Below are positions 17,302 through 35,025 of a DNA stretch of 64,000 nt, piece after piece (positions within the stretch are counted from its first letter, which is position 1; each line of letters opens with the position of its first letter). A program made the translations under genes and the position numbers. The DNA is taken from positions 1 through 64,000 of the IMG/VR virus record IMGVR_UViG_3300017605_000342; one strand, given 5' to 3'. Origin of the DNA: a virus. The notes under the pieces are model-generated. The model was not told the origin of the DNA. It was given only the letters and a program-made list of their open reading frames with translations, and did no database searches.

Positions 17302-17477
17302 GAACTTTCTCAGGCCACATGACACGGTGGGGATCACTGGCTAGCTTGGCTACGTGTATTAAAGTATCAATTACAGCAGCGATAGCACACGAACCAAGCC
17401 CAAGAGCTGTACTGTATTTAGTATTGTCTGGAATTCTTTGGTGGTTTGCATGGGAGGCTGACCGTTATGGCCCTTAA
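17298..17477 (+). CDS. 59-residue membrane protein, GTG start
   Basis: A GTG overlaps the previous stop (GTGA). The frame continues 59 codons into the first bases of the PARP gene. Two hydrophobic stretches are visible: 'SLASLATCIKVSITAAIA' and 'AVLYLVLSGILWWFAW'. It fills an otherwise empty 165-base gap. The role is unknown. Confidence 0.6.
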   Translation: MRTFSGHMTRWGSLASLATCIKVSITAAIAHEPSPRAVLYLVLSGILWWFAWEADRYGP

Positions 17478-18858
17478 ATCCTACGATCACGGCACACAGC
17501 CGTTTCCTGCAACGTATGATGTTGTTAAAATACACACGTTGCAGATGACAAACATGGGAGAAGGTAACAATAAGTTTTACAATATTGAATTACAGAGATC
17601 AGGCAGCCAATACAGAATATATACTTCGTACGGACGTACAGGTGCTGCCTATGTAAAAAACGAAGACAGGTTCCCGTCAGAGTACAATGCAGATTCAGAG
17701 TACCAATCCATTCTTAGTTCAAAGCTAAAGAAGGGATACCGGGAAGTCAAAGTCGCAACTGCAAAGCACGCATCGGCTGTAGGTCAATCACAGATTCTGT
17801 CACAAGATTTCGCAAAGCCTGCCACAGTACCTAGCACAACTGCCAGTGCTGTTACCACAGACTCTCGTATCATTCCGTTAATCGAGCGGCTATATGCAGA
17901 GGCAGGGCAGGGCTGTCAGTCACAGTTGCACGGCTCACTTAAAACATCAGCGGACAACCCACTAGGTACACTAACCCTCGGGCAGATTGACGCCGGCAAG
18001 CAAGTGTTAAACGAAGTTAATGCGTGGTTAGTTGCAAACCCGCACGAAGTTAATAAACTACACGCTAAAATTATTAGCTGGACAAATGACTTTTACTCTG
18101 CAATACCACAGCAGATCCCGCTGCGTCCAAAAGATCCGGTTGGCCGCGAGCAATACCTTAAGCAGTATTGTTTGAACCGTCCAGAAATCTTGGACGAAAA
18201 GTATGACTTACTAGATCTTCTGGCCAAGGTAGATGACATGAAGATTGGGTTCCACTCCAATGACATTGACAAGAAGTACGAAGAAACCAACACTGTCTAT
18301 GCGCCAGCCACGGCACAAGAAACAGAATATGCAAAGACTTACATGGTCAATTCACAGTCTAAGCACCACAATTGGAACCTAGTACCTGTCAGGGTGTGGT
18401 CAGTAGCCTCACGTGCACAGAAAAACAACTTGACTTACATGCAACCAATTGGTAATATCCAACGGTTGTTTCATGGCACTGGTGCCCAGAACGTTTTGGG
18501 TATTTGCCGTAAAGGCTTCTTGTTGAAGCCTGCTGGTGTTTACGTTTCCGGTAAGATGTTTGGTGAGGGTACATACTTTGCAGACCAGTCTACTAAATCT
18601 TCACAGTATGCCACTGGCCGTTTCGGTGGCTATGCGTCACACCACGGCGATACATCATTTATGTTCATCGTAGACGTGGCGTTGGGACGTATCAAAGAAT
18701 ATGAAAACAGTCAATGGAATCTTGTCAAGCCTCCAGCAGGATTTGACTCCGTAAAAGGTGTGAAGGGTTCTTCACTGTTGCACAACGAATTCATTGTATA
18801 TTCTGAAAAGCAAAATGTAATCACCCTACTAATAGAGTTCAAACAAACATACAGATGA
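17467..18858 (+). CDS. WGR-domain poly(ADP-ribose) polymerase
   Basis: This 463-residue protein has a WGR domain at about 35-97 (YGRTG at 55-59), a helical regulatory-like region at about 130-265, and a PARP catalytic domain from about 290. The H-Y-E triad is intact: His336 in 'RLFHGTG', Tyr370 in 'GEGTYFADQSTKSSQYA', and Glu441 in 'LLHNEFIVYSEKQ', matching PARP1 NEYIVY. It should use NAD+ to attach ADP-ribose, with Glu441 allowing chain elongation, probably when WGR senses nucleic-acid ends. The ATG at 17467 follows GGAGG. Nicotinamidase, NADAR and macro-domain genes in the window would act on its by-product and products. Confidence 0.92.
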   Translation: MALKSYDHGTQPFPATYDVVKIHTLQMTNMGEGNNKFYNIELQRSGSQYRIYTSYGRTGAAYVKNEDRFPSEYNADSEYQSILSSKLKKGYREVKVATAKHASAVGQSQILSQDFAKPATVPSTTASAVTTDSRIIPLIERLYAEAGQGCQSQLHGSLKTSADNPLGTLTLGQIDAGKQVLNEVNAWLVANPHEVNKLHAKIISWTNDFYSAIPQQIPLRPKDPVGREQYLKQYCLNRPEILDEKYDLLDLLAKVDDMKIGFHSNDIDKKYEETNTVYAPATAQETEYAKTYMVNSQSKHHNWNLVPVRVWSVASRAQKNNLTYMQPIGNIQRLFHGTGAQNVLGICRKGFLLKPAGVYVSGKMFGEGTYFADQSTKSSQYATGRFGGYASHHGDTSFMFIVDVALGRIKEYENSQWNLVKPPAGFDSVKGVKGSSLLHNEFIVYSEKQNVITLLIEFKQTYR

Positions 18859-21539: not shown

Positions 21540-21857
21540 ATGGAACAACATTGTATAGTCAAGGACTGTAAGAACGTTAGCATTGATATGATTTTTTATA
21601 ACGGTATCTGTGCACAATGCTATATGTATCTAACACAGGGCATCGGTGATGGCCAAGTTTATCGTAACTTGGTTAAAATGTTATTGAAAAGACTGTTTAA
21701 CTATCTAAAACAAGTAGATGAAACATTTGACGAAGAGCTACCGGAACCAACAACACCGGAACCTTCTGTCAATCCAGCACCACCAGTATCAGATCAACAT
21801 GCACTAGCTTTCAAAGAAGTATTACCCGGAGGTCGAATCAACGATATTAACCCATGA
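21540..21857 (+). CDS. small zinc-binding protein with Pro-rich tail
   Basis: This 105-residue protein follows GTAGGAGG. The N-terminus has C-x4-C...C-x2-C ('CIVKDC', 'CAQCYM'), a treble-clef-like site seen in actinophage and other phage proteins. The C-terminal half is an acidic Pro-rich tail ('EEPTTPEPSVNPAPP' style). The function is unknown. Confidence 0.62.
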   Translation: MEQHCIVKDCKNVSIDMIFYNGICAQCYMYLTQGIGDGQVYRNLVKMLLKRLFNYLKQVDETFDEELPEPTTPEPSVNPAPPVSDQHALAFKEVLPGGRINDINP

Positions 21858-23320
21858 GCTATTACGGAATTGTCGTCCAACTGGACGGGGTGCGCAAGCA
21901 CCCCGGAGCGGATCGTCTGCAACTTGCTAACTGTTTGGGTAACCAAGTGGTGGTAGGATTGGAGGCACGCGACGGGGATGTTACTGCGTTCTTTCCTGTT
22001 GACGGAAAACTATCAGAAGATTTTTTGAATGCAAACAACCTGTTACCTGTACTTGATGCCCAAGGTAAGCGTATTGGTGGAGGATTCTTTGATGTTAAAG
22101 GTAGAGTTCGCGCTCAAAAATTCAGAGGCGAACGTAGCGAAGGTTTTGCAATCCCGGTTGACGCACTTACGTACACAGGTTATTCAATTGCCAAGCTTAA
22201 GGTCGGCGATCAGATTACGGAACTTAATGGTCACCAAGTTTGCACCAAATACATTAACGAAAAAACTATCAGGGCACAAAAGGAAGCTTCACTTAGAGCA
22301 GCCAAAGTTAAAGTACTAAACTTCCCAGAGCATGTGGACACCGAACAATTCCGGTTTGTAGCGAAGGATATCCCTGCCGGATCATTGGTGTACATCTCTG
22401 CAAAAGAACATGGTACTTCACAGAGATACGCACACACGTTGATGACACGTAATTGGGCACAAGCTCATGTCATTAAGGTAGTGCCGCCACTGAAGTCTTT
22501 GCTGCGTAAGACACCGTTAAGAAAGTATGCTAACGAAGTATGTCGGCGACTTAACAATGTTCTGATCAAGCTAACTTCTAGACATTGTTTTACTATCAAG
22601 CCTAAGTACATACATGCTATTGGTACGCGGCGTACTGTGTTGGATCAGAATTCAAGCACGTCGTTCTATCAGTTAGAACATGGGTCAGAACAGTTTCGTT
22701 ACAATGTTATGCGTGGGGTTGTTTTGCGTAAGGGAGAAATCCTTTACGGTGAAGTTGTGGGCTGGGTATTGCCAGACAAGCCGATTATGTCCCAGTCAAT
22801 TTCAAAAGAAATTAAAAAGTCTTTCGATAAAATCTTCTCACAGCAATACCCTGGTGACCAGATGATTTACAAGTATGGCGTCCCCAACGGTGGTGCTGAA
22901 TTCCACGTGTACCGTATTGCCCACGTTAATGAAGACGGTAACATGGTTGACTTGCCGTGGACCCAAGTCGTACGTCGTTGTAAAGAACTGGGATTGAAGA
23001 CTGTTCAGTTAATGAACTTGAATTACTCCAAAGTGCAAGATGGAGTATTTCCGGTTATAACATACAACTATCAAAACCCATTTATCTACGACGGCAATGT
23101 ACGAGACTTACAGGAATTGGTTAATAGTCTGTTAGAAAAGCCCGCCATCTCAGATCCGTCACACATTGAAGAGGGCGTTGTGCTGCGTGTAGAACAGCCT
23201 GACGGTGAGATCAAATACATCAAGCAAAAGAGCTTTGCCTTCGGGGTCCTAGAAGGTTACGCAAAGCTTGACGAAAATTATGTTGACACTGAAGAAGCAG
23301 CCAGTGCCGAATCTGCTTGA
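21854..23320 (+). CDS. RNA ligase with N-terminal OB-like domain (Rnl5/DRB0094-like)
   Basis: At 488 residues it has an N-terminal OB-like domain ('MSYYGIVVQLDGVRKHPGAD', residues 1-125) followed by the ligase core. Motif I is SAKEHGTS with Lys184, motif III lies near 'EILYGEVVGWV', motif IV is 'EEGVVLRVE', and motif V 'YIKQKSFAF'. An OB domain ahead of the adenylation domain is the plan of the Deinococcus RNA ligase. It would seal 3'-OH/5'-P breaks, partnering the PseT-type enzyme. The start overlaps the upstream stop by 4 bases. Confidence 0.85.
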   Translation: MSYYGIVVQLDGVRKHPGADRLQLANCLGNQVVVGLEARDGDVTAFFPVDGKLSEDFLNANNLLPVLDAQGKRIGGGFFDVKGRVRAQKFRGERSEGFAIPVDALTYTGYSIAKLKVGDQITELNGHQVCTKYINEKTIRAQKEASLRAAKVKVLNFPEHVDTEQFRFVAKDIPAGSLVYISAKEHGTSQRYAHTLMTRNWAQAHVIKVVPPLKSLLRKTPLRKYANEVCRRLNNVLIKLTSRHCFTIKPKYIHAIGTRRTVLDQNSSTSFYQLEHGSEQFRYNVMRGVVLRKGEILYGEVVGWVLPDKPIMSQSISKEIKKSFDKIFSQQYPGDQMIYKYGVPNGGAEFHVYRIAHVNEDGNMVDLPWTQVVRRCKELGLKTVQLMNLNYSKVQDGVFPVITYNYQNPFIYDGNVRDLQELVNSLLEKPAISDPSHIEEGVVLRVEQPDGEIKYIKQKSFAFGVLEGYAKLDENYVDTEEAASAESA

Positions 23321-23357: not shown

Positions 23358-23579
23358 ATGGAACGTACTTATGAAGTAAAAGTTTATAGAGTAGAACTAA
23401 TATGTGATGCGTGCGGTCAAGGAACAATGAAGCCAACCGGAACCATGATCGGCGGTTGGCCTCCCAAGTTTCCACATCAGTGTACAGAATGTTTAACCAT
23501 TAACAGTTATTTATTAGAACAATACCCAAGAACAGTATATAAAAAGATACCCAATCAACCAGAGGAAATCACAAAATGA
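23358..23579 (+). CDS. zinc-ribbon protein
   Basis: This 73-residue protein follows AGGAG. It has CDACG and CTEC separated by 'GTMIGGWPPKFPHQ', a typical small zinc ribbon seen in phages. It overlaps the nicotinamidase gene by 4 bases. The function is unknown. Confidence 0.65.
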   Translation: MERTYEVKVYRVELICDACGQGTMKPTGTMIGGWPPKFPHQCTECLTINSYLLEQYPRTVYKKIPNQPEEITK

Positions 23580-24394
23580 AGAAAGTGCATCTAATTACCA
23601 TCGATGGACAGAATGACTTCTGCTCCTTCAGTAACAAGCGTGGTGCATTGTATGTCGGAGCAGACGCATCTGCGGCTGAGGCTGACATTAAGCGGTTGGC
23701 CAACTTCGTTACCAAAGTTGGTGACCGCCTAACAATGATCCACAGCACGTTGGACTCACATCACCCACAACACATTGCCCACGCCATTATGTGGACAAAC
23801 TCTAAGGGTGAGCAACCGCCAATTTTCAACCCGATCTTCAAGGCAGATGTTGAGTCGGGCAAGTGGTTTGCACACAACCCACGCCTGCGTGCTGCATTCC
23901 AGAACTATGTAAACGAACTGGAAAAACACAACCGTTATGTCTTGGTCATTTGGCCTCAGCATTGTATCATTGGCTCGTGGGGCCACGCGCTGTACCCGGA
24001 ACTGTCAGATGCATTTATCGAATGGCAGAACCGTTACCACAAGCGTATTAACTACGTTGCTAAAGGCAGCAACATGTTGACCGAACATTACTCCGCTGTG
24101 CAGGCTGACGTGCCGGACGATGCTGATCCGACCACCAAGCTGAACACACAGTTGATTGACTTGCTGGCAAAGAACGCTGACGAAATCCTGATCACTGGTC
24201 AGGCACTGTCCCATTGCGTTGCCAACACAATCACGGACATCGCCAATAACTTTGGCGAAGAGAACATTAAGAAGTTTACATTACTAGAAGATACTTGCTC
24301 TAATGTTCCTACCTTTGAAAAGCTAGGACAAGACTTCGTTAAAGATATGACTAAGCGTGGAATGCGCACTACCACTACATCTAACTGGAGCTAA
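23576..24394 (+). CDS. pncA: nicotinamidase / isochorismatase-family hydrolase
   Basis: This 272-residue protein has the cysteine-hydrolase triad: Asp10 in 'ITIDGQNDF', Lys163 in 'VAKGSN', and Cys214 in 'ALSHCVANT'. Metal-binding candidates of nicotinamidases are Asp60, His62/63 and His129 in 'WPQHC'. It would convert nicotinamide to nicotinic acid for NAD+ resynthesis. PARP at 17467 releases nicotinamide, an inhibitor of its own reaction, so the two fit one pathway. It is longer than bacterial PncA (about 213), with inserts near 75-115. The family also includes other amide hydrolases, so the substrate is inferred. Confidence 0.83.
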   Translation: MKKVHLITIDGQNDFCSFSNKRGALYVGADASAAEADIKRLANFVTKVGDRLTMIHSTLDSHHPQHIAHAIMWTNSKGEQPPIFNPIFKADVESGKWFAHNPRLRAAFQNYVNELEKHNRYVLVIWPQHCIIGSWGHALYPELSDAFIEWQNRYHKRINYVAKGSNMLTEHYSAVQADVPDDADPTTKLNTQLIDLLAKNADEILITGQALSHCVANTITDIANNFGEENIKKFTLLEDTCSNVPTFEKLGQDFVKDMTKRGMRTTTTSNWS

Positions 24395-24395
24395 C

Positions 24396-25145
24396 ATGAA
24401 TTCGGTAGATTTGAACGACGGTCTAGCACAGTTTAATACAACCTCAAACTACAAGTTTTCTGCAATACCTGTAGACCAGGTTGGTGCTTCTGAAATCACG
24501 TTGGTGACTCTGGTCACTGACGTTAGTGGCTCTGTTATTGATTTTGCAAAACGTATTGAAGAGATGCTTAAGACTGTGGTAAAATCCTGTCAGTCTCCGA
24601 AATGTCCACGTGCTGACAACCTGATGTTTCGGTTGATTGACTTTGCAGATTATGTTACAGAACTGCATGGGTTCAAGCCTGTGGAGTCCATCAAAGGTGA
24701 TGCCTACAATGGAATTATCCAAATCAAAGGGTCAACCGCCCTCTTCGATGCAGTTGCGCAGGCTGTCGAAGCTACTACAAAGTATGGCAAAGAATTATAC
24801 GATCAGGATTTTACTCCCAACGCCATTATCTTCATCATCACCGATGGAGAAAACAATCGACCTCCAATGGACGCCTCTGTTGTTGCAAAGGCCATTGGTG
24901 AAGCCCGAAAGTCAGAAGCTTTGGTGTCGATCACAACGGTCTTGATCGGTGTCACGGATAATTCTGCGTCCTTGTCACAGTACTTACAAGAGTTCAAGGA
25001 CACAGCAAAGATCGATCAGTACATTGACATTGGCAGTGCTACACCCGGCAAGCTGGCGAAGCTCGCTGACTTTGTGAGTAAGTCTGTGAGTTCTACATCA
25101 CAGGCTATTACAACTGGTGCGGCTTCTGCTCCATTAACATTCTAA
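24396..25145 (+). CDS. vWA-domain protein (TerY-like)
   Basis: This 249-residue protein is a single von Willebrand A domain. The metal-ion-dependent adhesion site is complete: D-V-S-G-S near residue 46, a Thr in 'KGSTALFDAV', and Asp in 'FIITDGEN'. No signal peptide is present, so it is cytoplasmic. TerY vWA proteins occur with a PP2C phosphatase and a protein kinase in the TerY-P triad; both are found 6-9 kb downstream. Five tRNAs follow directly. Its start is 2 bases after the nicotinamidase stop. Confidence 0.82.
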   Translation: MNSVDLNDGLAQFNTTSNYKFSAIPVDQVGASEITLVTLVTDVSGSVIDFAKRIEEMLKTVVKSCQSPKCPRADNLMFRLIDFADYVTELHGFKPVESIKGDAYNGIIQIKGSTALFDAVAQAVEATTKYGKELYDQDFTPNAIIFIITDGENNRPPMDASVVAKAIGEARKSEALVSITTVLIGVTDNSASLSQYLQEFKDTAKIDQYIDIGSATPGKLAKLADFVSKSVSSTSQAITTGAASAPLTF

Positions 25146-25152
25146 GTATATT

Positions 25153-25228
25153 GCACGGATCGACAAGAGGCTTAAGTCGCATGGCTGCAACCCATGCATC
25201 GGGGGTTCGAATCCCTCTCCGTGCTCCA
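25153..25228 (+). tRNA. tRNA-Cys (GCA)
   Basis: The acceptor is GCACGGA/TCCGTGC with T73 (U73 is a Cys identity base) and encoded CCA. The anticodon loop is CTGCAAC in a GCATGG/CCATGC stem. It is the first of five tRNAs in tandem. Confidence 0.95.
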
Positions 25229-25234
25229 GTTTAT

Positions 25235-25312
25235 AGGGTCGCATGCTCCAAGGCTGGCGAGTTCGCCTCCAAAGCTTACTGTGGATGGGTTCGATTCCCT
25301 CCGGCCCTGCCA
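25235..25312 (+). tRNA. tRNA-Trp (CCA), with weak stems
   Basis: The acceptor AGGGTCG/CGGCCCT with G73 and encoded CCA looks like tRNA-Trp, and the loop CTCCAAA gives anticodon CCA. The anticodon stem has two adjacent mismatches and the T stem pairs only three bases. GGCG...CGCC in the D region could form a rival hairpin. It may be degenerate or rely on unusual pairing. Confidence 0.65.
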
Positions 25313-25329
25313 TAATAAAAGTATAAATA

Positions 25330-25406
25330 CGGCTCATAGTATAACGGACAATTACACTAGCCTTTTAAGCTGTGAGATCGGGGTTCAAATCCTCGTGGGC
25401 CGACCA
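25330..25406 (+). tRNA. tRNA-Lys (TTT)
   Basis: The acceptor is CGGCTCA/TGGGCCG with A73 and encoded CCA. The anticodon loop CTTTTAA gives TTT, and the T arm GGGG-TTCAAAT-CCTC is regular. One anticodon-stem pair is a mismatch. Confidence 0.9.
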
Positions 25407-25408
25407 AA

Positions 25409-25484
25409 CGTTTCGTAGTATAGTGGCAATTACATCCGACTCTTAATCGGTAAGACGGAGGTTCAAGTCCTCCCGAAACGACCA
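25409..25484 (+). tRNA. tRNA-Lys (CTT)
   Basis: The acceptor is CGTTTCG/CGAAACG, A73 and encoded CCA. The anticodon arm CCGA-CTCTTAA-TCGG gives CTT. It is 2 bases after the other Lys tRNA, whose anticodon differs. Confidence 0.95.
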
Positions 25485-25488
25485 CAAC

Positions 25489-25564
25489 CGGACTATAGCT
25501 CAGTTGGTTAGAGCAGGCGGCTGATAACCGTCCGACTCAGGTTCGACTCCTGATAGTCCGACCA
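25489..25564 (+). tRNA. tRNA-Ile (GAT)
   Basis: The acceptor is CGGACTA/TAGTCCG, A73 and encoded CCA. The anticodon arm GGCGG-CTGATAA-CCGTC gives GAT. It is the last of the five-tRNA cluster. Confidence 0.95.
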
Positions 25565-25581
25565 TCCTTTTAGGAGACAAT

Positions 25582-26238
25582 ATGCTGGATTCATTGTTGA
25601 AGAAAGCAAAGTCATTCGTAGTTGAAGATGTTCCTGAAGCAGCACCGCTTAAAGCACGCCCTACAGTTGCTCCCCAACCAGCACCCGCCCAAGATGTAGA
25701 TTTCGGACACCAGTCTTCTACCAATGTTGAACCAAAGGTAGAAGAACTACGCACACAATTGCTCCCTACATCCGGGCCGCTGGTTATGTTCACCAGTGTT
25801 CTTAACTCATTGCAAGGGGCCATCCCCAACGAAGCTACCAGATTCCGCACAGCAGTCCAAGTACTGGGAGCACAGGGCATAACTTTACAGTTAGTATCTC
25901 AAGAAATAAATACAGTGTTAGGAAAAATAGAAGCGCATAAAAACGCAGCAGAAGAAGCCCGCGCAAGAAAGTACAAAGAACGTGTCACAGACAAACAGGG
26001 AGAAATTGACAGAGTAGAAAAACAGCTTGAGGCTAAACAAGCAGAAATTGCTCAACTCATTCTACAGAAAGATACCCTCCAAGCTGAGATTCAGACTTCT
26101 GAAACTCAAATCAAAGAGCGGGCATGGCAGTGGGAAGCAGCACGTGCTACATTGTCTGACGAGTATAATGATTTGTCTAAGAAGTTGGATATTTATTTTG
26201 ACAACAACAGCAAAGCAACTCAAGGAGCATCAAAGTGA
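25582..26238 (+). CDS. coiled-coil protein with Pro-rich N-terminus
   Basis: This 218-residue protein follows TTTTAGGAGA. Residues about 20-55 form a Pro/Ala-rich linker; residues about 100-200 form a long Lys/Glu/Gln-rich coiled coil ('VEKQLEAKQAEIAQLILQKD'). No signal or membrane segment is seen. It is the first gene of a run with a membrane coiled-coil protein, a binding-protein/OmpA fusion and an ABC transporter, so it may be a scaffold. The function is unknown. Confidence 0.65.
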   Translation: MLDSLLKKAKSFVVEDVPEAAPLKARPTVAPQPAPAQDVDFGHQSSTNVEPKVEELRTQLLPTSGPLVMFTSVLNSLQGAIPNEATRFRTAVQVLGAQGITLQLVSQEINTVLGKIEAHKNAAEEARARKYKERVTDKQGEIDRVEKQLEAKQAEIAQLILQKDTLQAEIQTSETQIKERAWQWEAARATLSDEYNDLSKKLDIYFDNNSKATQGASK

Positions 26239-27275
26239 CGACATTACCTACCGTCGCATCAGAACCAGGTAAGAAGAGTTTTTGGAAGCGACCAGAAGGC
26301 ATCACCGGAATTGTTTTTAACGTAGCACTGGGTGCAGCTATCTTCTTCGGTTGGGGTACTATCGTGCCGTTTGTGTTAGCGGCTGCGGTCAATACTCTTA
26401 ACCTGATTGTGGTATCCCTCGCAGCGGCTGGCATCGTGTACGTCATGTTCGACAAGAACTTCAGACGGTTCTTGTGGTACTTGTACCGATCTGCAATGCG
26501 TTGGGTAACACAGTTCATCGTCGATATCGACCCTATCGGTATCTTGAAAAGCTATATAGAAAAGCTTATTGAAAAACGTACAGAGTTAAACGACTCAGTA
26601 GCTGAGATTCAAGGCCAGAGACAAAAGCTGGTTAGATTACTAGCTAAAAATAAAGAAGAGTTTAAAACTAGCCTAGCAAAACTACAAGCAGCTAAGGCTC
26701 AACTGAACGACTCTGACCCACTCAAGGCGAGACAAGCGGTTAGAATCGAGGCACTGGAATCAAAGCAGGCGGATCGCCTGCACCAAATGGTTACGACACA
26801 GGAAGGTCACGAAAAGAAATATGACTTCATCGTCCAAGCATTGACAAGATACGGAGAAGTGTGCGACGATAGTATCACGGACATGCGCAATGAAGTCTCT
26901 TTCAGGGAGCAAGAACAGGAGCAGGCCCGATCCTTCAAGAAGGGAATGTCTGCTGCTTTTGGAATCCTGAAAGGGTTGCCAGACGATCAGGAAATGTACG
27001 ACATGGCTTTGGAAACTCTCGAAAGAGAATACACAGAGAACATGGGTAGGGTTGAAAATGTTTTGGACATCACCAAGAATGTTATTTTACAGGCAGACTT
27101 TAACGATGCAGCTTCTTTAGCAAAAGCAGATGCATTGTTGTCTGACTGGAATAACAGTCACACAATACTACCTACTAAAAAAGAACAAGCAGCAATTACA
27201 GCAGCGCCTTTTTACATCAGCCCGTCAGAAGTTGTGCAAGTAAAAGCTAAGACGGCTGACAAATTGTTCGACTAG
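26235..27275 (+). CDS. membrane protein with cytoplasmic coiled coil
   Basis: At 346 residues it has two membrane spans near 25-45 and 50-73, then a long helical region with coiled coil ('ELNDSVAEIQGQRQKLVRLL', about 118-220). The C-terminal part is also helical. It overlaps the previous coiled-coil gene by 4 bases, so the two may interact. No family is recognised. It sits just before the membrane-anchored binding protein. Confidence 0.7.
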   Translation: MTTLPTVASEPGKKSFWKRPEGITGIVFNVALGAAIFFGWGTIVPFVLAAAVNTLNLIVVSLAAAGIVYVMFDKNFRRFLWYLYRSAMRWVTQFIVDIDPIGILKSYIEKLIEKRTELNDSVAEIQGQRQKLVRLLAKNKEEFKTSLAKLQAAKAQLNDSDPLKARQAVRIEALESKQADRLHQMVTTQEGHEKKYDFIVQALTRYGEVCDDSITDMRNEVSFREQEQEQARSFKKGMSAAFGILKGLPDDQEMYDMALETLEREYTENMGRVENVLDITKNVILQADFNDAASLAKADALLSDWNNSHTILPTKKEQAAITAAPFYISPSEVVQVKAKTADKLFD

Positions 27276-27286
27276 GAGCGTCACTC

Positions 27287-29074
27287 ATGGCTACTCGTGT
27301 TAAGCTACTGCCCAAATTAGTGGGCATTTTCGCCATCGCTGCAATCTTTGCGTTCGGCTACAGGTCGTTGATTTATCATGGTATCGTCAAGCGGCCTGAT
27401 GCTTTGAAATCGCTTGTTCCGATTCAAACAGAAGACATTCAGGCAGAAGTGTTACAGCATGACACTAACGTTAAAGTAGTTCCTTTACCTAAAAGCATTG
27501 TTACGCAGATAAGTGGGCCTGTTATCAAAGGCTCATTGTGGTTCTGGAATTCACAGTTCGGAGTCATGGTGGCTAACGGCGGGCCACTTACCACACAAGG
27601 CTCATTGGTCGAAGCTCAAGGCGTGAAGTTACGTTTAGAGCGTCAAGATGACCCAGAGCAAATGCGTAATGAACTTGCGGTGTTTGCGACGGCTCTAGCC
27701 GGGGGTAACCCACACCCAACTGTTGGTACCCATTTTGTGTTTATCATGGGCGACGGTTCTGCTGCGTTCTTGGCACCGCTCAATGAACGGCTAAAGAAGC
27801 TTGGGCCGGAATACATTGCTGAAGTTGTGGACAGTGTTGGGTACTCACGTGGCGAAGACGGCTTTTGGGGACCTGCGACTTGGAAGTCGGAACCTAAGTT
27901 AGCCAGAGGTTCTTTGATTGCTGTCGTGCTACGTGACGGTGATTGGAATTTGATTTTGCGTTGGGCGCACATCAACGATATTCCAGTTAATCCAGATGAA
28001 AAAACGTATGACCCCAATGCCATCAATTTACTGGCAACGGCTACATACATTGAAGCATCACAGCGCTACATCGCTGGTTACTGTGATGAACGACCGCTTA
28101 AAGACAAGCCTGCTGAAATGGCAAAGCTCTGCGTTAACGGTGTTGCTACGTGGACACCCGGCGACGTGATGATTGCCGAAAAGAAAGGCGGCTTAGTTCC
28201 TTTGATGACTACCAAGTCAGCGTTCTTCCAGATGCCGAATACTGTAATCGGTATTAAAAAGTGGAACGCCGCAAACGCAGACAAGGTTGCTGGTATGATA
28301 GCCGCGTTTGCCCAAGGTGCGGATCAGGTGCGCACTAATCCAAACGCCTTCCGTAAAGCAGCAGAAATCAGTGTAGCTGTTTACAAAGAACAGGATGCCG
28401 AATATTGTATGCGATACTTCAAGGGTGTTACTAAAAAAGATCTACAAGGTAACACTGTAGAACTAGGTGGCTCTGCTGTATCTAACCTAGCAGACGTGCG
28501 ACAACTGTTTGGTATGGATGGTGGCCCTAACATTTTCAAGAAGACTTACGAAACATGGGGCAATGCTGTTATCCAACAGTATCCGACGTTGATGGCGGCG
28601 TATCCTCCGACTGAGGAAATCCTCAACACTCGGTACGTTGCATTGGCGTCAGCTAAAATCAACCAAGCTGAAGCATTACCTGCTGATGCTCCGACCTATT
28701 CTGAGAACGCTCCTATCACAGAAGTGATTGGGCATAGGGCATACAGTATTAATTTCCGTACAGGGTCTGCTGAAATCCTACCTAATTCTTACTCTGTACT
28801 AAATGAAATTGTAGACGACTTGGTTACGTCTAACACCCAAGTAATTGTACATGGTCATACCGATAACACAGGCACGGCGGCTGGCAATGAGTCCTTGTCA
28901 AACGCTCGTGCGCTTTCTGTCAAGCGGTACTTCACTGTCAAGGGTGGAACAGCAGTTCCGGCTGTCAGAGTGAAGACAGTTCCCCACGGACAAGACGAGC
29001 CTGTGGCTGATAACAGCAGTGAGGCTGGTCGTGCTAAAAACCGTAGAGTGGAGATTGTTCTAGGAAAACAGTAA
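27287..29074 (+). CDS. ABC substrate-binding protein fused to OmpA-like domain
   Basis: This 595-residue protein has an N-terminal membrane anchor (about 8-28), a central region resembling a periplasmic binding protein of the NitT/TauT (NMT1/TauA) type, and a C-terminal OmpA-like peptidoglycan-binding domain from about 490. The OmpA pattern is 'VHGHTDNTGTAAGNESLSNA' followed by 'RAKNRRVEIVL'. It would hold a solute-binding domain between inner membrane and cell wall. The adjacent permease and the ATPase gene complete a transporter. Similar fusions are annotated in bacterial chromosomes; finding one in a phage is unusual. Confidence 0.8.
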   Translation: MATRVKLLPKLVGIFAIAAIFAFGYRSLIYHGIVKRPDALKSLVPIQTEDIQAEVLQHDTNVKVVPLPKSIVTQISGPVIKGSLWFWNSQFGVMVANGGPLTTQGSLVEAQGVKLRLERQDDPEQMRNELAVFATALAGGNPHPTVGTHFVFIMGDGSAAFLAPLNERLKKLGPEYIAEVVDSVGYSRGEDGFWGPATWKSEPKLARGSLIAVVLRDGDWNLILRWAHINDIPVNPDEKTYDPNAINLLATATYIEASQRYIAGYCDERPLKDKPAEMAKLCVNGVATWTPGDVMIAEKKGGLVPLMTTKSAFFQMPNTVIGIKKWNAANADKVAGMIAAFAQGADQVRTNPNAFRKAAEISVAVYKEQDAEYCMRYFKGVTKKDLQGNTVELGGSAVSNLADVRQLFGMDGGPNIFKKTYETWGNAVIQQYPTLMAAYPPTEEILNTRYVALASAKINQAEALPADAPTYSENAPITEVIGHRAYSINFRTGSAEILPNSYSVLNEIVDDLVTSNTQVIVHGHTDNTGTAAGNESLSNARALSVKRYFTVKGGTAVPAVRVKTVPHGQDEPVADNSSEAGRAKNRRVEIVLGKQ

Positions 29075-29886
29075 TGACTTCAATCAAGGGTGCGGGTACC
29101 TTAAGGCTAGCCCGCACCTTATTCACCCCAAACGAAAGTGTTCCCACCAAAATTTATTACTGTATACTTTTAGCTTATTTGTTAAGTTCTGTGTTCATGT
29201 GGGCATTCTACCCCTCGCCCATATTCCCAACCCCATTAGGTGTTATCGAAGCCCTGCCTGGTTTATGGAACCAAGGATTAGGTTATGAGTTATGGGTAAG
29301 TATCACACTCAACATGCAGGCGGTTGCTATAATGTCTGTGGTATCCCTGCTTATTGGGTACGCTGACACCATTACGGCTCTACGACCACTACCTACGTGG
29401 GTGAGTGCCTTCCGGTCTAACGGGTTTGTTGGATTGCCGTTGTTGCTGACGTTCCTTATTAGCAGTCAGCATTGGATTAAGGTCATGTTACTAGTCATCG
29501 GCATGTCAGTGTTTACGGTGCCGTCAATCGTTGCTATGATCCACGGAATGCATCGTAATGTCTTTGACCATGCGCGAGTACTGCGTATGAACGAGTGGCG
29601 GGTGCTGTGGGAGGTAGTAGTACTAGGCAAGTTCCATGAAGTGTTGGATATCTTGCGCACCAACATGGCAATTGGTTGGATGATGCTACCAATGGTAGAA
29701 GGGCTGTTCAAAACTGAAGGTGGCATCGGAGCTATGATCCTAGCTCAAAACAAATTCTTTAGATTAGAAGAAGTATATTGTATTATCTTTGTAGTCATTG
29801 CGGCGGGATTACTCCAAGACGCAGCAATAAAGGGAGTGCGACGGTTGTTATGCCCGCACGCATACATTAACACGGAGAAGAAGTAA
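29074..29886 (+). CDS. ABC transporter permease (NitT/TauT type)
   Basis: This 270-residue protein has about six hydrophobic spans and the permease EAA-like loop 'ARVLRMNEWRVLWEVVVLGK' near residues 168-187, followed by 'AIGWMMLPMVEG'. This is the membrane part of a binding-protein-dependent importer such as SsuC/TauC. It starts at the TAATG junction with the binding-protein gene. The substrate cannot be told. The ATPase gene is 711 bases downstream, past three small genes. Confidence 0.78.
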   Translation: MTSIKGAGTLRLARTLFTPNESVPTKIYYCILLAYLLSSVFMWAFYPSPIFPTPLGVIEALPGLWNQGLGYELWVSITLNMQAVAIMSVVSLLIGYADTITALRPLPTWVSAFRSNGFVGLPLLLTFLISSQHWIKVMLLVIGMSVFTVPSIVAMIHGMHRNVFDHARVLRMNEWRVLWEVVVLGKFHEVLDILRTNMAIGWMMLPMVEGLFKTEGGIGAMILAQNKFFRLEEVYCIIFVVIAAGLLQDAAIKGVRRLLCPHAYINTEKK

Positions 29887-30194
29887 TGTTATACAAAGAC
29901 AAACTAGGACAAGACATTAAAGTCGGTGATTACATAGCGTATGGTGCGGCATTGGGTAGGTGTTCTACGATTCATTTAGGGCGAGTGCTAGAACTTACAC
30001 AAAGTAAAGTAACTGAGTGGCATCACGACAAGCCAACACCTAAGCTAAAAGTACGCGCATGTACCAATCATAGTTGGGATGAAACTAGAGGCATGCAGCT
30101 ACTGTCAAAACCAGTGTCGTTAGGTTTCTTTGAACGTTTGGTTGTGTTGCATCCAGACACCGTACCTCAAAACATTAAGGAACTACTACAATGA
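29886..30194 (+). CDS. hypothetical protein
   Basis: This 102-residue protein starts at TAATG after the permease. The N-terminal 'DKLGQDIKVGDYIAYGAALG' and following strands look like a small SH3-like barrel common in phages. The function is unknown; it may be unrelated to transport. Confidence 0.6.
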   Translation: MLYKDKLGQDIKVGDYIAYGAALGRCSTIHLGRVLELTQSKVTEWHHDKPTPKLKVRACTNHSWDETRGMQLLSKPVSLGFFERLVVLHPDTVPQNIKELLQ

Positions 30195-30490
30195 GCCAAA
30201 GTAAGCGTTTACCACTTGCAGAAGTTAGAGTAGCCTGTGGGCGGTGCTTCTTGTCAGTCGCTGGTATCGCAGTGGCAATGGAAACGGACCCATGCAGGGA
30301 GATATCTATACCGGAAGCATTACTAGAACCTATACCACAACATGAATTGGACAATGCGTACATTGGAGGAAAGGCAGCAAAGGATTTACCAATTGAAGTT
30401 GTTAGGTATTTTCGTGGTGACAGTTGGACTCCCAAGATGCTTGACTACGTGGCTGACAAGATAAATAAGGCGGTGGAGAATGGATTGTAG
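30191..30490 (+). CDS. hypothetical protein
   Basis: This 99-residue protein overlaps its neighbour by 4 bases. It has CGRC near residue 16 and 'DAYIGGKAAKDLPIEVVRYF'-like helical sequence further on. No family is recognised. Confidence 0.58.
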   Translation: MSQSKRLPLAEVRVACGRCFLSVAGIAVAMETDPCREISIPEALLEPIPQHELDNAYIGGKAAKDLPIEVVRYFRGDSWTPKMLDYVADKINKAVENGL

Positions 30491-30593
30491 TTGTATTTTA
30501 GGGCTTATCGGGCCTGTAGGTGGCTTCATTGTGGGTGTTATGTGCCTGTATGGACTATATAGGATCACATGGAAAATAATGTTTGGAGAGTAA
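30480..30593 (+). CDS. 37-residue single-span membrane protein
   Basis: The ATG follows GGTGGAGA and lies within the end of the previous gene. The product has one hydrophobic span ('CILGLIGPVGGFIVGVMCLY') and a short basic tail. It ends 3 bases before the ABC ATPase start, so it could be part of the transporter complex. The function is unknown. Confidence 0.6.
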   Translation: MDCSCILGLIGPVGGFIVGVMCLYGLYRITWKIMFGE

Positions 30594-30596
30594 CGA

Positions 30597-31442
30597 GTGT
30601 ACACCAGAGACGAAGTGTTATTGCACATAGAAAACGTATCTCAAAAATATGAAGATAAAGTTGTTTTAGAAAACTTAAGTATTAAGATACATAATCTACA
30701 TGCAACAGACGCGGCGGTAACTGCCGGACAGGTTGTAGGATTCTTAGGGCCTTCCGGTTGTGGTAAGACACAGTTGTTGCGTATCATATCTGGGCTACAG
30801 CGCCCAACCACTGGAGAAGTATTTATAGATGCAGATAAAAAACGTATGCGTAAAGGTATGTGTGGTGTGGTTTTCCAAACGTACCCACTGTTCTTGCATC
30901 GAACAGTTATGGGAAATTTGTTGCTAGCCGGAAGCATGGCTGGCATGACTCATGCAGAAGCTATGAACACCGCCAATGAACTGCTGGCTACGTTTGAGTT
31001 AGAAGGATCAGCAGAGAAATTTCCAGGTGAGTTGTCTGGCGGTATGCAACAACGTGTTGCTATCTGCCAACAACTTATTAACATGGACAGTAAGCTAGGG
31101 CATACAGATACACGCTTGATGTTGCTGGACGAGCCGTTTGCTGCATTGGACCCGCGCAATACCTTTAAGACGTGCAAACTACTACGTAAGGTCGCTGACA
31201 TGCACGACCTAAACACCATCGTTGTCGTCACACACGACATACGTGCGGCGTTATCAGTTAGTGACGTGCTGTGGATCATGGGCAGAGATAGAGACGAGAA
31301 CGGTAAGGTATGCTCTGGCGGAAAGATAATCCAAGAGTTGGATCTAGTCAACCAAGGGCTAACGTGGCACCCAGAAGTAGAGTCACTACCAGCATTTATA
31401 AAGCTTAACAAAGATATCAACGAACTATTCCACATACTGTGA
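30597..31442 (+). CDS. ABC transporter ATP-binding protein (TauB/SsuB-like)
   Basis: This 281-residue protein has a GTG start after GGAG. Walker A is GPSGCGKTQ at 51-59, the Q loop is 'GVVFQTYPLF', the signature 'LSGGMQQRVA', Walker B 'RLMLLDEPFAALDP', and the H loop 'VVTHDI'. All catalytic elements are present. It would power the importer formed by the permease and the OmpA-linked binding protein. The C-terminal tail (about 240-281) is longer than in TauB. Confidence 0.9.
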   Translation: MYTRDEVLLHIENVSQKYEDKVVLENLSIKIHNLHATDAAVTAGQVVGFLGPSGCGKTQLLRIISGLQRPTTGEVFIDADKKRMRKGMCGVVFQTYPLFLHRTVMGNLLLAGSMAGMTHAEAMNTANELLATFELEGSAEKFPGELSGGMQQRVAICQQLINMDSKLGHTDTRLMLLDEPFAALDPRNTFKTCKLLRKVADMHDLNTIVVVTHDIRAALSVSDVLWIMGRDRDENGKVCSGGKIIQELDLVNQGLTWHPEVESLPAFIKLNKDINELFHIL

Positions 31443-31449
31443 GGACACT

Positions 31450-31761
31450 ATGAACTTTAATTTGGCAGTAGGTGTAGCACAAAAAGACTCAGGCATCGCG
31501 GCTGCAAAAGCAGCCAGGGTACAGCTTGTTAAGTTGGCGCGTGAGGTTGCCAAAGCCACAGCAGCAGAGAGAGAACTTCGACTCGTCACGATAGACGATG
31601 TATATCGTGTACTTGCCATGAAAGGCCATGACGTTAGCCAGCTAGGAAATGCTGCTGGGTCAGTGTTCAAAGAATCGTGTTGGGAATTTGTCGGATGGAG
31701 GCCATCTGAACGAGTCAGTAACCATGCAAGACCTGTTCGAATCTGGAAATATGCAAACTAA
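31450..31761 (+). CDS. conserved small phage protein
   Basis: This 103-residue protein has 'DDVYRVLAMKGHDVSQLGNA' and 'GSVFKESCWEFVGWRPSERV', then 'HARPVRIWKY'. The pattern is familiar from many phages. The family has no established function. It follows GAGGAC and precedes the phosphatase with a short overlap. Confidence 0.7.
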   Translation: MNFNLAVGVAQKDSGIAAAKAARVQLVKLAREVAKATAAERELRLVTIDDVYRVLAMKGHDVSQLGNAAGSVFKESCWEFVGWRPSERVSNHARPVRIWKYAN

Positions 31762-32572
31762 TCATTACACTGCTATCGGGGCTGATCACAAAGTTTGTCA
31801 AGACTACGCTGCATCAGGGCTAGTAAACAACGTGGAGTTCGGCCCCACATTCTATGGTATAGTGTGCGATGGATGTTCTTCTGCACCACACACAGAGTTT
31901 GGTGCACAGGTTATCACCCACGCTGCTATCCATCAACTTAAAGTAAATCCATACAAGGTGCCAGAAGACTTCATACGTGAAGTTATGAACCGCGCAAGAA
32001 AAGCTATCGAGCCACTAGATATTAATCCTCGGTGTTTGTTAGCTACGTTACTGCTTGTGCGGGCCGACGACAAAGACACCATCGTGTGGCTGTGGGGTGA
32101 CGGGTTATGCCGCATCTCTTATCAAGGTGGCACAACAGTTACACAAGAAGTGGAGTATGACTCCAACGCTCCGTTTTATCCATACTACAGCACCACTAGA
32201 ACAGAGCGTGATTCTTACCTCAGTTCTTTTGATCTTGTCAAACGAGTGCGCCACTCAGATGTTTACCATGATGGCCGGGAGCGCGGTGGAGAAGAAATAC
32301 TTAAAGGTCCCGAAGCAATGCTGGTATCAGGCTTGTGTGTTAATACAGCAGACATTAAAGCAGTGACGGTAATGTCAGATGGTATCAAGTCGTTTCAAGA
32401 CGTGAATCAGGCTCCTGTGTCACAGCACACGACGATCAACGAAGCAACGATATTCAAAACCACAACCGGACAGTACATTGAACGCAGAATGCACGCCTTC
32501 AAGCAACGCCTCTGTGTGGCTAATGGCTGGACACACTACGACGATCTTGGTATCGCGGGAGTAGCGCAATGA
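31751..32572 (+). CDS. PP2C-type serine/threonine phosphatase
   Basis: This 273-residue protein has the PP2C metal residues: 'VCDGCSSAPHTEFGA' near 36-50, 'WLWGDGLCR' near 112, 'VMSDGIKSF', and a final 'YDDLGIAGV'. It is a stand-alone catalytic domain. The start could be 27 bases upstream; 31751 has the better ribosome site. With the vWA protein and the kinase at 33047 it forms a TerY-P-like set, expected to reverse kinase phosphorylation. Confidence 0.82.
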   Translation: MQTNHYTAIGADHKVCQDYAASGLVNNVEFGPTFYGIVCDGCSSAPHTEFGAQVITHAAIHQLKVNPYKVPEDFIREVMNRARKAIEPLDINPRCLLATLLLVRADDKDTIVWLWGDGLCRISYQGGTTVTQEVEYDSNAPFYPYYSTTRTERDSYLSSFDLVKRVRHSDVYHDGRERGGEEILKGPEAMLVSGLCVNTADIKAVTVMSDGIKSFQDVNQAPVSQHTTINEATIFKTTTGQYIERRMHAFKQRLCVANGWTHYDDLGIAGVAQ

Positions 32573-32667
32573 AAGACAGAATCTTTTGGTGGTTAGTTGA
32601 ATACGCACAGATTATATCTTGGATAGTTTTGATTATCACATTGTTTCTTCTGAGATTTTGTCAATGA
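32569..32667 (+). CDS. 32-residue single-span membrane protein
   Basis: The ATG overlaps the phosphatase stop, and the stop overlaps the next ATG. The product is 'MKDRIFWWLVEYAQIISW' followed by 'IVLIITLFLLRF', one membrane span. The function is unknown; coupling supports it as a gene. Confidence 0.62.
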   Translation: MKDRIFWWLVEYAQIISWIVLIITLFLLRFCQ

Positions 32668-33044
32668 ACGCAATACAAGCAGCAAAGAAAACTAAGGCGG
32701 CAATAGCAAGACAAAAGAAAGAAGAGCGGCTAAAGGAATTGCAGCAAGAAAGAGAATCCAAGAAACGGGTTGCTACGGCCCTAGCACAGCTTGATTGGTA
32801 CATGCGGGAAGTTAATAAGAGAATCAGAGAAGCCATCAATGCGGGTGTACACAAGGCAAACTACGACTTTGGGGATGATGACACTGGTAGAGCACTCATG
32901 CACGCGGTACGAAAAAGATTAGAGAAACGAAAGTTCATCGTTCATACAGGATACTACTCTGAAACACACGACTACGGAGATTTTAACGCGCCATGTGTAG
33001 TAGAGGAATCCGGTTTTAATATGACCATTTCGTGGGGTGCGTAA
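32664..33044 (+). CDS. charged helical protein
   Basis: This 126-residue protein has an N-terminal basic coiled coil ('QKKEERLKELQQERESKKR') and a C-terminal mixed domain with 'RKFIVHTGYYSETHDYGDFN'. The function is unknown. It lies between the phosphatase and the kinase and may be part of that set. Confidence 0.6.
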   Translation: MNAIQAAKKTKAAIARQKKEERLKELQQERESKKRVATALAQLDWYMREVNKRIREAINAGVHKANYDFGDDDTGRALMHAVRKRLEKRKFIVHTGYYSETHDYGDFNAPCVVEESGFNMTISWGA

Positions 33045-33046
33045 GA

Positions 33047-34729
33047 ATGAAGAAGACACTCACAATTGCGGGGCACAACGAGGTAATTACCGACAAGAAT
33101 TATCTCGGTGCCGGCGGGGAGGCTGCGGTGTACACCAGCGCCAATGGGCTGTTGGTATACAAGCTTTACCACGACCCGCAAAAGGCGGTAGCAATCCTTA
33201 ACAAGATTGCAGAGTTAAAAGCAATTCAATCAAAGGACGTTCTGATTCCACGCGATGTTATCTACGAAGGCGGCAGCCCCGTAGGATACTCGATGGATTT
33301 TTTAAGTAAGACAGATCCTTTGTGTAAGTTTTTTACCAAAGCTTTTAAGAATTCTCAAAAGATAACTCCAGATCAAATAAAGGAATTGATAACAAACATA
33401 CAAAAGATCGTACCGCACATCCACAAAGCACGGTGCCTAATTGTGGATTTCAATGAGCTAAATGTGCTGGTAGAAGCTGACAGGATTACACCGCACATTA
33501 TAGACACAGATAGTTTTCAAACACCAAACTATCCTGCCACAGCAATCATGCCGTCGATCAGAGATCCTAAAGCAACGAAGTTCACAGAACTGTCTGACTG
33601 GTTTTCGTGGGGCATCCTAGCCTTTCAAGCTTACATTAACATCCACCCGTACAAGGGCAATCATCCAGACTACACGGCAATGGACTGGCCGCGTAGAATG
33701 CAGGATAATGTCAGTGTCTTTGACAAGAAAGTAACCCTGCCTCCGGTATGTAATCCGCTGTCTGTAATTCCAAAAAACCACCTACATTGGTTTGAGGCGG
33801 TATTCCAGAAAGGTGATAGAAGCGTGCCGCCGTTAGCCGACGCAGTGGCTATCCCTGTACCACAGGCAATACAGATCGTAAAGTCCTCTGGTAAGTTTAT
33901 TGTAGCTCCTGTACAACAGTATGACTCTAAGATACGCTTCCATATAACATATGGTGGGGCAAACTGGGTAGCAACCCAGACAGCTATCTACAAGCCGCGC
34001 AACATAGGTGCTACTGTATCAAACACAGGACGTACTCGGTTGGTCCCTACTCATGACGGTGAACTGGTCGTTGTAGAAGTCAGTGGCGATTACATTGCGT
34101 TCAAGGACGCGGCCATGCATGAGTTCGGCCACACTACGTCTAATGGCGGGCGGTGCTTTGTCAAGAACAACGCACTGTATACCACCATTGCAGGCAAGCT
34201 TATCGAAACTACCTTCATTACTATGGGCAAGAAGATCATACCCCGCACTGTAGACCTTGACAATGTTTCAGAAATATCTTCCAGAATGTGTGAAGGTATT
34301 ATTGTACAGGATCTATTGGGTGAGATTTTTATAACAGTACCATATGTTGTGGGTCGTAGCAAGACCACCAAGCTACCGGAAGTTAAAGGCTACAGGGTCT
34401 TGGAGGCCCGCTCAGAAAGAAACGTTGTTGTTCTTGTTACAGAGAAGGGTGGCGAGTACTGGAGATTTGTTTTAACCTTCGACAACACGTGGGGCGCACA
34501 TACTTTCCGCTTGACAAAAATGCAGCAGTATGGTAGCATTAATATGACGGTGAAACCAAATGGCGTTGGTATCCTTGTCTCTGACCTTGACGAGATCGAA
34601 GTCTTCAAGGAAGACAAGGTTGTGGTTTATAAGAACCCGCCCTTTGATGAATCCATGTGGCTCTTTAATGTCAATGACAATGTTTGTTTTATCTCAGGTA
34701 ATCAAATCTACCAAGTTAAAATAACATGA
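33047..34729 (+). CDS. atypical protein kinase with C-terminal beta-propeller-like region (TerY-P-like)
   Basis: At 560 residues, the kinase lobe has GAGGEAAVY at 21-29 and Lys39 in 'VYKLY'. Its catalytic loop is 'CLIVDFNELNVLVE', and 'HIIDTDSFQ' stands in place of DFG. 'ELSDWFSWGILAFQAYI' corresponds to the F helix. The DxDSFQ version is typical of the kinases in TerY-P triads. Residues about 280-560 are repeated strands, probably a propeller or similar binding platform. Its partners would be the vWA protein and PP2C phosphatase. Confidence 0.8.
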   Translation: MKKTLTIAGHNEVITDKNYLGAGGEAAVYTSANGLLVYKLYHDPQKAVAILNKIAELKAIQSKDVLIPRDVIYEGGSPVGYSMDFLSKTDPLCKFFTKAFKNSQKITPDQIKELITNIQKIVPHIHKARCLIVDFNELNVLVEADRITPHIIDTDSFQTPNYPATAIMPSIRDPKATKFTELSDWFSWGILAFQAYINIHPYKGNHPDYTAMDWPRRMQDNVSVFDKKVTLPPVCNPLSVIPKNHLHWFEAVFQKGDRSVPPLADAVAIPVPQAIQIVKSSGKFIVAPVQQYDSKIRFHITYGGANWVATQTAIYKPRNIGATVSNTGRTRLVPTHDGELVVVEVSGDYIAFKDAAMHEFGHTTSNGGRCFVKNNALYTTIAGKLIETTFITMGKKIIPRTVDLDNVSEISSRMCEGIIVQDLLGEIFITVPYVVGRSKTTKLPEVKGYRVLEARSERNVVVLVTEKGGEYWRFVLTFDNTWGAHTFRLTKMQQYGSINMTVKPNGVGILVSDLDEIEVFKEDKVVVYKNPPFDESMWLFNVNDNVCFISGNQIYQVKIT

Positions 34730-35025
34730 CCGATAATCAGACACCAGGTAACATCGTAAAGATAACATCTAACAACGTCATTTACTTTACTTGTATTGAT
34801 TGTCACGCGCTTAATAGGACGACGTTTTACCCAGCAGTATTAAAACCGTGTAAGAAGTGTAAACTGAGTAAAGAAACTGTAGTAGTTAAAAACAAAGTTG
34901 CATACTATCAATATCGATGTTCTTACTGTGGTGTGGCTTTCTGTAGTGAACAGCTTAAACGATCCTACTGCTCTAAGCAGTGTTACGCATTTGACAACAG
35001 GAGGAAAATTGATAACATACAATGA
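34726..35025 (+). CDS. zinc-binding protein with two Cys clusters
   Basis: This 99-residue protein has 'CIDCHALN' with 'CKKCKLSKE', then 'CSYCGVAFCS' with 'YCSKQCYAFD'. Together they form two zinc sites, the second like a treble clef. It overlaps the kinase stop as ATGA. Similar ribbons end some TerY-P kinases, so it could be a split partner, but this is speculative. Confidence 0.58.
   Translation: MTDNQTPGNIVKITSNNVIYFTCIDCHALNRTTFYPAVLKPCKKCKLSKETVVVKNKVAYYQYRCSYCGVAFCSEQLKRSYCSKQCYAFDNRRKIDNIQ

Follow-up and report, generated by a model that had tools for sequence, protein, structure and literature searches.

What is an ABC transporter doing on a large phage, in the midst of genes for a protein kinase and a phosphatase? 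The question is raised by IMG/VR virus record IMGVR_UViG_3300017605_000342, a 160,874-base record whose bases 1-64000 were analysed as one stretch (the window). Between positions 24,396 and 35,025 it encodes a von Willebrand factor A (vWA) protein, two coiled-coil proteins (CC1 and CC2tm), a solute-binding protein (SBP) fused to an OmpA domain, the permease and ATPase of an ATP-binding cassette (ABC) transporter, a PP2C phosphatase and an atypical kinase. The original prediction, made from the DNA letters alone, read these genes as a single envelope-spanning module under phospho-control. All the genes that it named within about 10 kb turned out to be open frames where it had placed them, with their motifs, the catalytic ones included, intact. 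By our analysis they almost certainly fall into two units: module B (CC1, CC2tm, SBP-OmpA, permease and ATPase), a cassette that large phages exchange and that has a chromosomal operon of bacteria as a relative, which together with tRNA genes lies between the vWA and PP2C genes of module A, another recurrent unit.

Because the record carries genes for terminase, portal, major head protein, DNA polymerase, primase-helicase, a UvsX-like recombinase and ribonucleotide reductase, it is that of a phage with no host junction. A host-prophage junction, which had been named as an event that could overturn the prediction, was thus ruled out, and both gene groups are indeed phage-borne.

The five-gene cassette in large phages

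Module B occupies positions 25582-31442. Its genes, and two small open reading frames among them, are the following.

25582..26238, plus strand: CC1 (module B gene 1), with an amphipathic N-terminus, a Pro-rich linker, a helical domain and a coiled coil
26235..27275, plus strand: CC2tm (module B gene 2), with N-terminal hydrophobic segments, a conserved DP motif and a long hairpin
27287..29074, plus strand: SBP-OmpA (module B gene 3), with an N-terminal transmembrane anchor, a solute-binding domain of predicted TauA/SsuA/NrtA fold and a C-terminal OmpA domain
29074..29886, plus strand: ABC importer permease, TauC-like (module B gene 4)
29886..30194, plus strand: small open reading frame of 102 amino acids between permease and ATPase; no relatives found
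30191..30490, plus strand: small open reading frame of 99 amino acids between permease and ATPase; no relatives found
30597..31442, plus strand: ABC ATPase (module B gene 5), Pfam ABC_tran E 1e-23

With the SBP-OmpA protein as query, 11 loci were found among viral contigs; each contained the permease and the ATPase, and nearly all had CC2tm upstream. Searching with an alignment of SBP domains raised the number of viral loci to 42 and yielded a further 104 in bacterial genomes, 80 of the latter being kept. In a six-frame profile scan of 44 distinct phage SBP loci, the window and locus L199 included, the permease was present in 42, the ATPase in 40 and CC2tm in 39, and CC1, found in 36, also belongs to the module. 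The five genes occurred together in the order CC1-CC2tm-SBP-permease-ATPase in 33 of the 44 loci, and several of those without the full set are cut by contig ends. The original prediction had considered a complete importer with its regulators highly unusual on a phage; an importer cassette of this kind is not unique to this one, being present in 44 phage contigs. A comparison of the neighbourhoods of SBP-OmpA fusions in phages and bacteria, which it had proposed, brought out the recurrent five-gene cassette but left the kinase and the phosphatase outside it.

The nearest relative, L093, lies on a 224-kb contig and over 21 kb has only the five cassette genes in common with the window (43, 55, 66, 53 and 63% identity, tblastn); none of the small intervening open reading frames of the window was present in L093. 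In all, at least four extra small frames (102, 99, 103 and 141 amino acids) occur in the region. The differences between the window and L093 cluster at third codon positions (0.62-0.71, versus 0.20-0.36 at second positions). This restriction of the shared genes to five, together with the third-position differences, indicates a transferable cassette under purifying selection. Judged from these comparisons, module B is a five-gene cassette exchanged among large phages and stripped to a minimal set. Genes for AAA+ ATPases were located within 10 kb of the cassette in seven phage loci. A DNA-level search of phage records gave no match, the permease sequence used alone as a query found no viral relatives, no plasmid copies of the cassette were found, and Foldseek against viral models returned weak matches only.

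Bacterial operons that combine PspA and Snf7 homologs bearing a transmembrane segment with an AAA+ ATPase, an ABC ATPase, a permease and a PBPB-OmpA protein have been described, and membrane remodelling coupled to solute transport was proposed for them (Ravi et al. 2024, PMC11237479). Module B unites the PspA-like protein with a transmembrane segment, the ABC ATPase, the permease and the SBP-OmpA protein of those operons; an AAA+ ATPase gene, as reported for the bacterial operons, lies near the cassette in some phage loci. In contrast to the bacterial operons, the phage cassette is carried by large phages, includes CC1 and has no constant AAA+ partner. The word "phages" is absent from the text of that report, and phage copies of the operon were not found in the open-licence papers searched. 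The bacterial operon itself had been predicted in 2024; its recurrence as a five-gene phage cassette was met in none of those papers.

Among the 80 bacterial loci sampled, the order SBP-permease-ATPase-CC1 was observed in 22 and the phage-type order CC1-CC2tm-SBP-permease-ATPase in only 9. That the latter are misbinned phages was ruled out for L076, L078 and L092, which are chromosomal and flanked by metabolic genes; L091, also with the phage-type order, adjoins PHROG-matching genes. A tree of 68 SBP domains contained several large phage clades and required nine changes between phage and bacterium, at least six of them on well-supported branches, pointing to repeated exchange. Many bacterial loci encode, after the ATPase, an extra transmembrane protein of about 280-325 amino acids with no Pfam match (L026:13292-14266, L046:13353-14315, L019:13267-14166), possibly the counterpart of the membrane-anchoring part of CC2tm. 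In Xanthocytophaga (L078:8664-9692), CC2tm and SBP-OmpA are separated by a gene for an additional actin/Ppx-GppA-like protein that has a hydrophobic segment at its N-terminus.

CC2tm and the SBP-OmpA transporter

The original prediction had noted two coiled-coil proteins, one of them membrane-bound; both are present, but the likeness of CC2tm to PspA/Vipp1 (ESCRT-III) proteins was missed. PspA and Vipp1 polymerise on membranes and protect the proton motive force, and PspA owes its name to the host response to phage. In profile-profile comparisons (hhalign), the CC2tm family reached a probability of 95.8% (E 7.5e-9) against the operonic PspA proteins, the matched part being alpha0-alpha1 with its (N/D)P turn, while the equally coiled CC1 family, used as a control, scored 7% against PspA and 8% against CC2tm. 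CC1 was accordingly ruled out as a second PspA. An AlphaFold2 model of CC2tm (mean pLDDT 74.6, pTM 0.5) consisted of N-terminal hydrophobic helices followed by a long hairpin, and the solved structures ranked 1-7 by Foldseek were all of Vipp1 or PspA (best E 8e-4), with other long helical hairpins next (E about 0.01). A sequence search of the PDB with the CC2tm profile returned generic coiled coils only, so that we base the link to PspA on the profile-profile match, the fold and the position in the operon. With regard to the last, some Acidobacteria carry in the CC2tm slot a true PspA/IM30 gene (PF04012; for instance L019), whose best solved match is Vipp1 sll0617 (E 5e-29).

By its profile and its predicted fold, CC2tm is a membrane-anchored PspA/Vipp1-like protein. 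It shares with PspA/Vipp1 (IM30) the alpha0-alpha1 part with its (N/D)P motif and the long helical hairpin, and has its best Foldseek matches there; it differs in possessing N-terminal membrane-spanning segments, in a diverged C-terminal half and in a PF04012 score below threshold. A stand-alone canonical PspA-like gene was also observed on another phage contig (L183:13314-13988), downstream of a kinase triad.

The SBP-OmpA protein ends in an OmpA domain (Pfam E 3e-20), a domain type that binds peptidoglycan, and begins with a single hydrophobic segment; from these two features its anchoring in the inner membrane follows, and attachment to peptidoglycan is very likely. As the SBP domain had no sequence match in Pfam or in the PDB, the latter searched with the SBP profile, its structure was predicted (pLDDT 96.9), and the best solved relatives of the model were TauA (E 9e-11), SsuA, NrtA, CmpA and Thi5, that is, the NitT/TauT class. 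NitT/TauT systems are importers of small anions or organic ligands. Across 59 phage and bacterial SBP domains, 26 columns were invariant, which suggests a ligand that is specific and conserved. The permease gave a weak BPD_transp_1/TauC match, and the ATPase has its Walker A, Q-loop, LSGG, Walker B and H-switch motifs all present, so the SBP-OmpA ABC system does exist as predicted.

Compared with the NitT/TauT importers TauABC, SsuABC and NrtABCD, the phage set has in common the SBP fold, the TauC-like permease and the ATPase motifs, whereas its SBP is longer, anchored in the inner membrane, fused to OmpA and endowed with binding motifs of its own (RDGDWN, NPDEKTYD and TWTPGDV). A second, independent phage SBP-OmpA system is encoded on a 223-kb contig (L203:1-3820), where a different fusion with an ordinary TauA-like binding domain is accompanied by a permease and an ATPase, about 4 kb from a PP2C gene.

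A possible role in envelope maintenance

We lean towards the view that two independently inherited phage modules are interleaved in the window and that module B maintains or remodels the envelope in a manner linked to the binding of a solute. The mechanism that we propose for module B, taken as a whole, could well apply but is put forward tentatively. With its transmembrane anchor fixing it to the inner membrane and OmpA tying it to peptidoglycan, the SBP domain would capture or sense a small ligand, organic or anionic and of the taurine, sulfonate or nitrate type, and pass it on to a homodimeric permease with its ATPase. Beside this transporter, the membrane-anchored CC2tm would polymerise at the cytoplasmic face, where CC1 might recruit or cap it. 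In this way the inner membrane of the host and its proton motive force would be preserved, or the membrane remodelled, over a long infection. Module A would, independently of B, serve as an ATP-dependent phospho-switch in which the kinase opposes the phosphatase and the vWA protein provides a metal-dependent scaffold, its targets belonging to the host or the phage.

Several points weigh against this view. The Pfam PspA model (PF04012, PspA_IM30) does not recognise CC2tm, which has no Pfam family; its homology to PspA is clear for the alpha0-alpha1 part only, and its AlphaFold2 model is middling (pLDDT 75, pTM 0.5). In addition, modules A and B lie within about 11 kb of each other in L199, L203, G005 and G032. 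A bolder version, in which a periplasmic sensor of ligand or peptidoglycan is coupled via the ABC transporter to the assembly of a membrane-anchored PspA-like polymer that would preserve, seal or reshape the inner membrane of the infected host, making the cassette a mobile ESCRT-III-like membrane remodeller of large phages, seems to us possible but doubtful.

Module B might instead be a plain nutrient importer, an auxiliary metabolic trait supplying a limiting sulfonate, anion or vitamin precursor, with the PspA-like protein and CC1 acting only as stabilisers. Its complete SBP-permease-ATPase set of NitT/TauT fold and the strongly conserved binding domain, with the 26 invariant columns in 59 sequences mentioned above, would suit such a function; we consider it unlikely, however, since an OmpA anchor and a constant PspA-like partner are foreign to plain importers and both are kept in nearly every phage. 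Superinfection exclusion, in which envelope changes would block the entry of DNA from other phages, is consistent with the envelope location, the peptidoglycan anchoring and the presence of the cassette on many large phages, and TerY-P-like systems are antiphage elsewhere (PMC11090510). On the other hand, no similarity to known exclusion proteins was found, the PADLOC matches were limited to the generic OmpA domain and weak coiled-coil hits, and the bacterial operons are chromosomal and placed amid metabolic genes, which makes this explanation improbable.

Module A and its place around the cassette

The genes of module A enclose the cassette, four tRNA genes lie between the vWA gene and CC1, and a small open reading frame follows the kinase.

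23576..24394, plus strand: isochorismatase/nicotinamidase-like cysteine hydrolase (module A gene 1), Pfam Isochorismatase at the cut-off (27.3 bits)
24396..25145, plus strand: YegL-like vWA protein with an intact metal-ion-dependent adhesion site (MIDAS; module A gene 2)
25153..25564, plus strand: tRNA-Cys, tRNA-Lys, tRNA-Lys and tRNA-Ile (ARAGORN), between the vWA gene and CC1
31649 or 31745 to 32572, plus strand: PP2C phosphatase (module A gene 3), start uncertain, domain at 31787-32401
33032..34729, plus strand: atypical Ser/Thr kinase, YegI-like, with an additional C-terminal region (module A gene 4)
34726..35025, plus strand: small cysteine-rich, zinc-ribbon-like open reading frame with a weak Zn_ribbon_10 match, separate from the kinase; no relatives found

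The MIDAS motifs of the vWA protein are readable (DVSGS, GST and TDG) with a Pfam VWA_2 match below threshold (E 4.5e-4), the phosphatase matched PP2C_2 (E 3e-13), and the kinase gave a sub-threshold Pkinase match (E 9e-6), its residues D139, N144, D158 and D160 (VDFNELN, IDTDSFQ) being invariant in six phage homologues. Against E. coli, the phage family profiles matched YegL (E 2e-21), PphC (7e-6) and YegI (2e-52). The vWA sequence used alone as a query found no viral relatives; an alignment of six kinases led to 92 viral loci, 80 of which were kept. Near the kinase in these 80 loci were a nicotinamidase-like gene (74), a vWA gene (76) and a PP2C gene (77); the four genes occurred together in 73 loci, and 62 showed the order hydrolase-vWA-PP2C-kinase, the nicotinamidase-like gene being upstream of vWA in most.

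The phage set resembles the E. coli YegL-PphC(YegK)-YegI and the TerY-P triads in that a vWA protein, a PP2C phosphatase and an atypical kinase are encoded together, and differs in the added nicotinamidase-like gene and, in the window, in being split by module B, which leaves vWA and PP2C 6.5 kb apart. TerY-P kinases are defined by a C-terminal zinc ribbon, or by an OB fold in the antiphage versions (PMC11090510). Pfam detected neither at the C-terminus of the window kinase, which is followed by the separate small Cys-rich frame, and PADLOC assigned none of the window vWA, PP2C and kinase proteins to a defence system, the presence of TerY-P models in PADLOC being unchecked. On these grounds the set may fairly be called TerY-P-like, whereas its membership in TerY-P proper is not established: of the triad originally predicted, the conservation of the three genes in phages stands, in a set that extends to the upstream hydrolase.

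Judged by sequence alone, L135 has a gene next to its kinase that appears to encode an NAD+ synthetase, and L140 and L141 contain apparent genes for NAMPT and NadM-Nudix. Taken with the nicotinamidase-like gene at 23576-24394, observations of this kind, drawn from loci L135, L137, L138, L140 and L141, raise the notion that NAD metabolism and the kinase triad may be linked in large phages. Two further vWA-domain proteins are encoded by the same phage outside the window (G000 130686-130997, minus strand, and 143477-143770, plus strand).

Elsewhere in large phages, the PP2C and kinase homologues adjoin each other, usually apart from module B. An SBP or permease gene was found within 10 kb in only 2 of the 80 module A loci (L199 and L203), an SBP profile scan of 50 module A records was positive in one, and a kinase was present anywhere in 6 of the 36 phage SBP records of at least 48 kb. 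In those six, the kinase and the SBP are nested in the window and separated by about 9 kb in G005, 11 kb in G032, 58 kb in G042 (a partial SBP only), 115 kb in G014 and 140 kb in G017 (assuming a circular record). Leaving the window aside, two of the five records with both modules have them within 11 kb, which is not distinguishable from chance (p = 0.12), so a statistical link between A and B was not supported. No PP2C or kinase gene was found in the sampled bacterial B operons. Module A around module B was seen only in the window, where B starts right after the four tRNA genes 3' of the vWA gene, as would fit an insertion of B into A.

These counts, together with the five-gene limit of the likeness to L093, argue for interleaving and leave the predicted phospho-control unsupported. 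Homologues of the triad and the transporter hardly ever occur together elsewhere, while each module alone recurs far above chance, dozens of other large phages carrying one or the other. That A and B form one envelope-signalling machine, with kinase and phosphatase controlling the ABC/PspA complex via the vWA or coiled-coil proteins, is the least probable explanation, given the scarcity of shared loci just described. In its favour are their nesting on one strand and three neighbourhoods elsewhere: in L199 a full module B downstream of A at about 3 kb, in L203 the SBP-OmpA ABC set about 4 kb upstream of PP2C, and in L183 a PspA gene that follows the kinase at a distance of about 1.6 kb. A loose functional linkage keeps a residual chance.

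With regard to the surroundings, the window contains 20 tRNA genes (ARAGORN), and an RNA ligase gene lies near the region at 21854-23320 (phrog_968, E 1e-51). Two proteins (14303-15424 and 17446-18858) resemble, by the look of their sequence, proteins with a WGR domain, which is frequently associated with the repair or modification of DNA, and an apparent glycosyltransferase/sugar-nucleotide cluster, with WecB-like epimerase and dTDP-sugar reductase-like genes, runs from 61159 to 64000 and on to about 77000 of the record.

In summary, a membrane-anchored relative of PspA is encoded by dozens of large phages themselves, almost always next to an ABC importer anchored to peptidoglycan, and the two form part of a transferable cassette. 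For bacteria, the operon has been a prediction only; the five-gene phage copies define its minimal set and open to direct tests the reason why an ESCRT-III-like protein should accompany an ABC transporter. The kinase-phosphatase-vWA-nicotinamidase set represents a second, equally recurrent phage unit. Each module is thus a recurring phage tool, and together they are not one machine.

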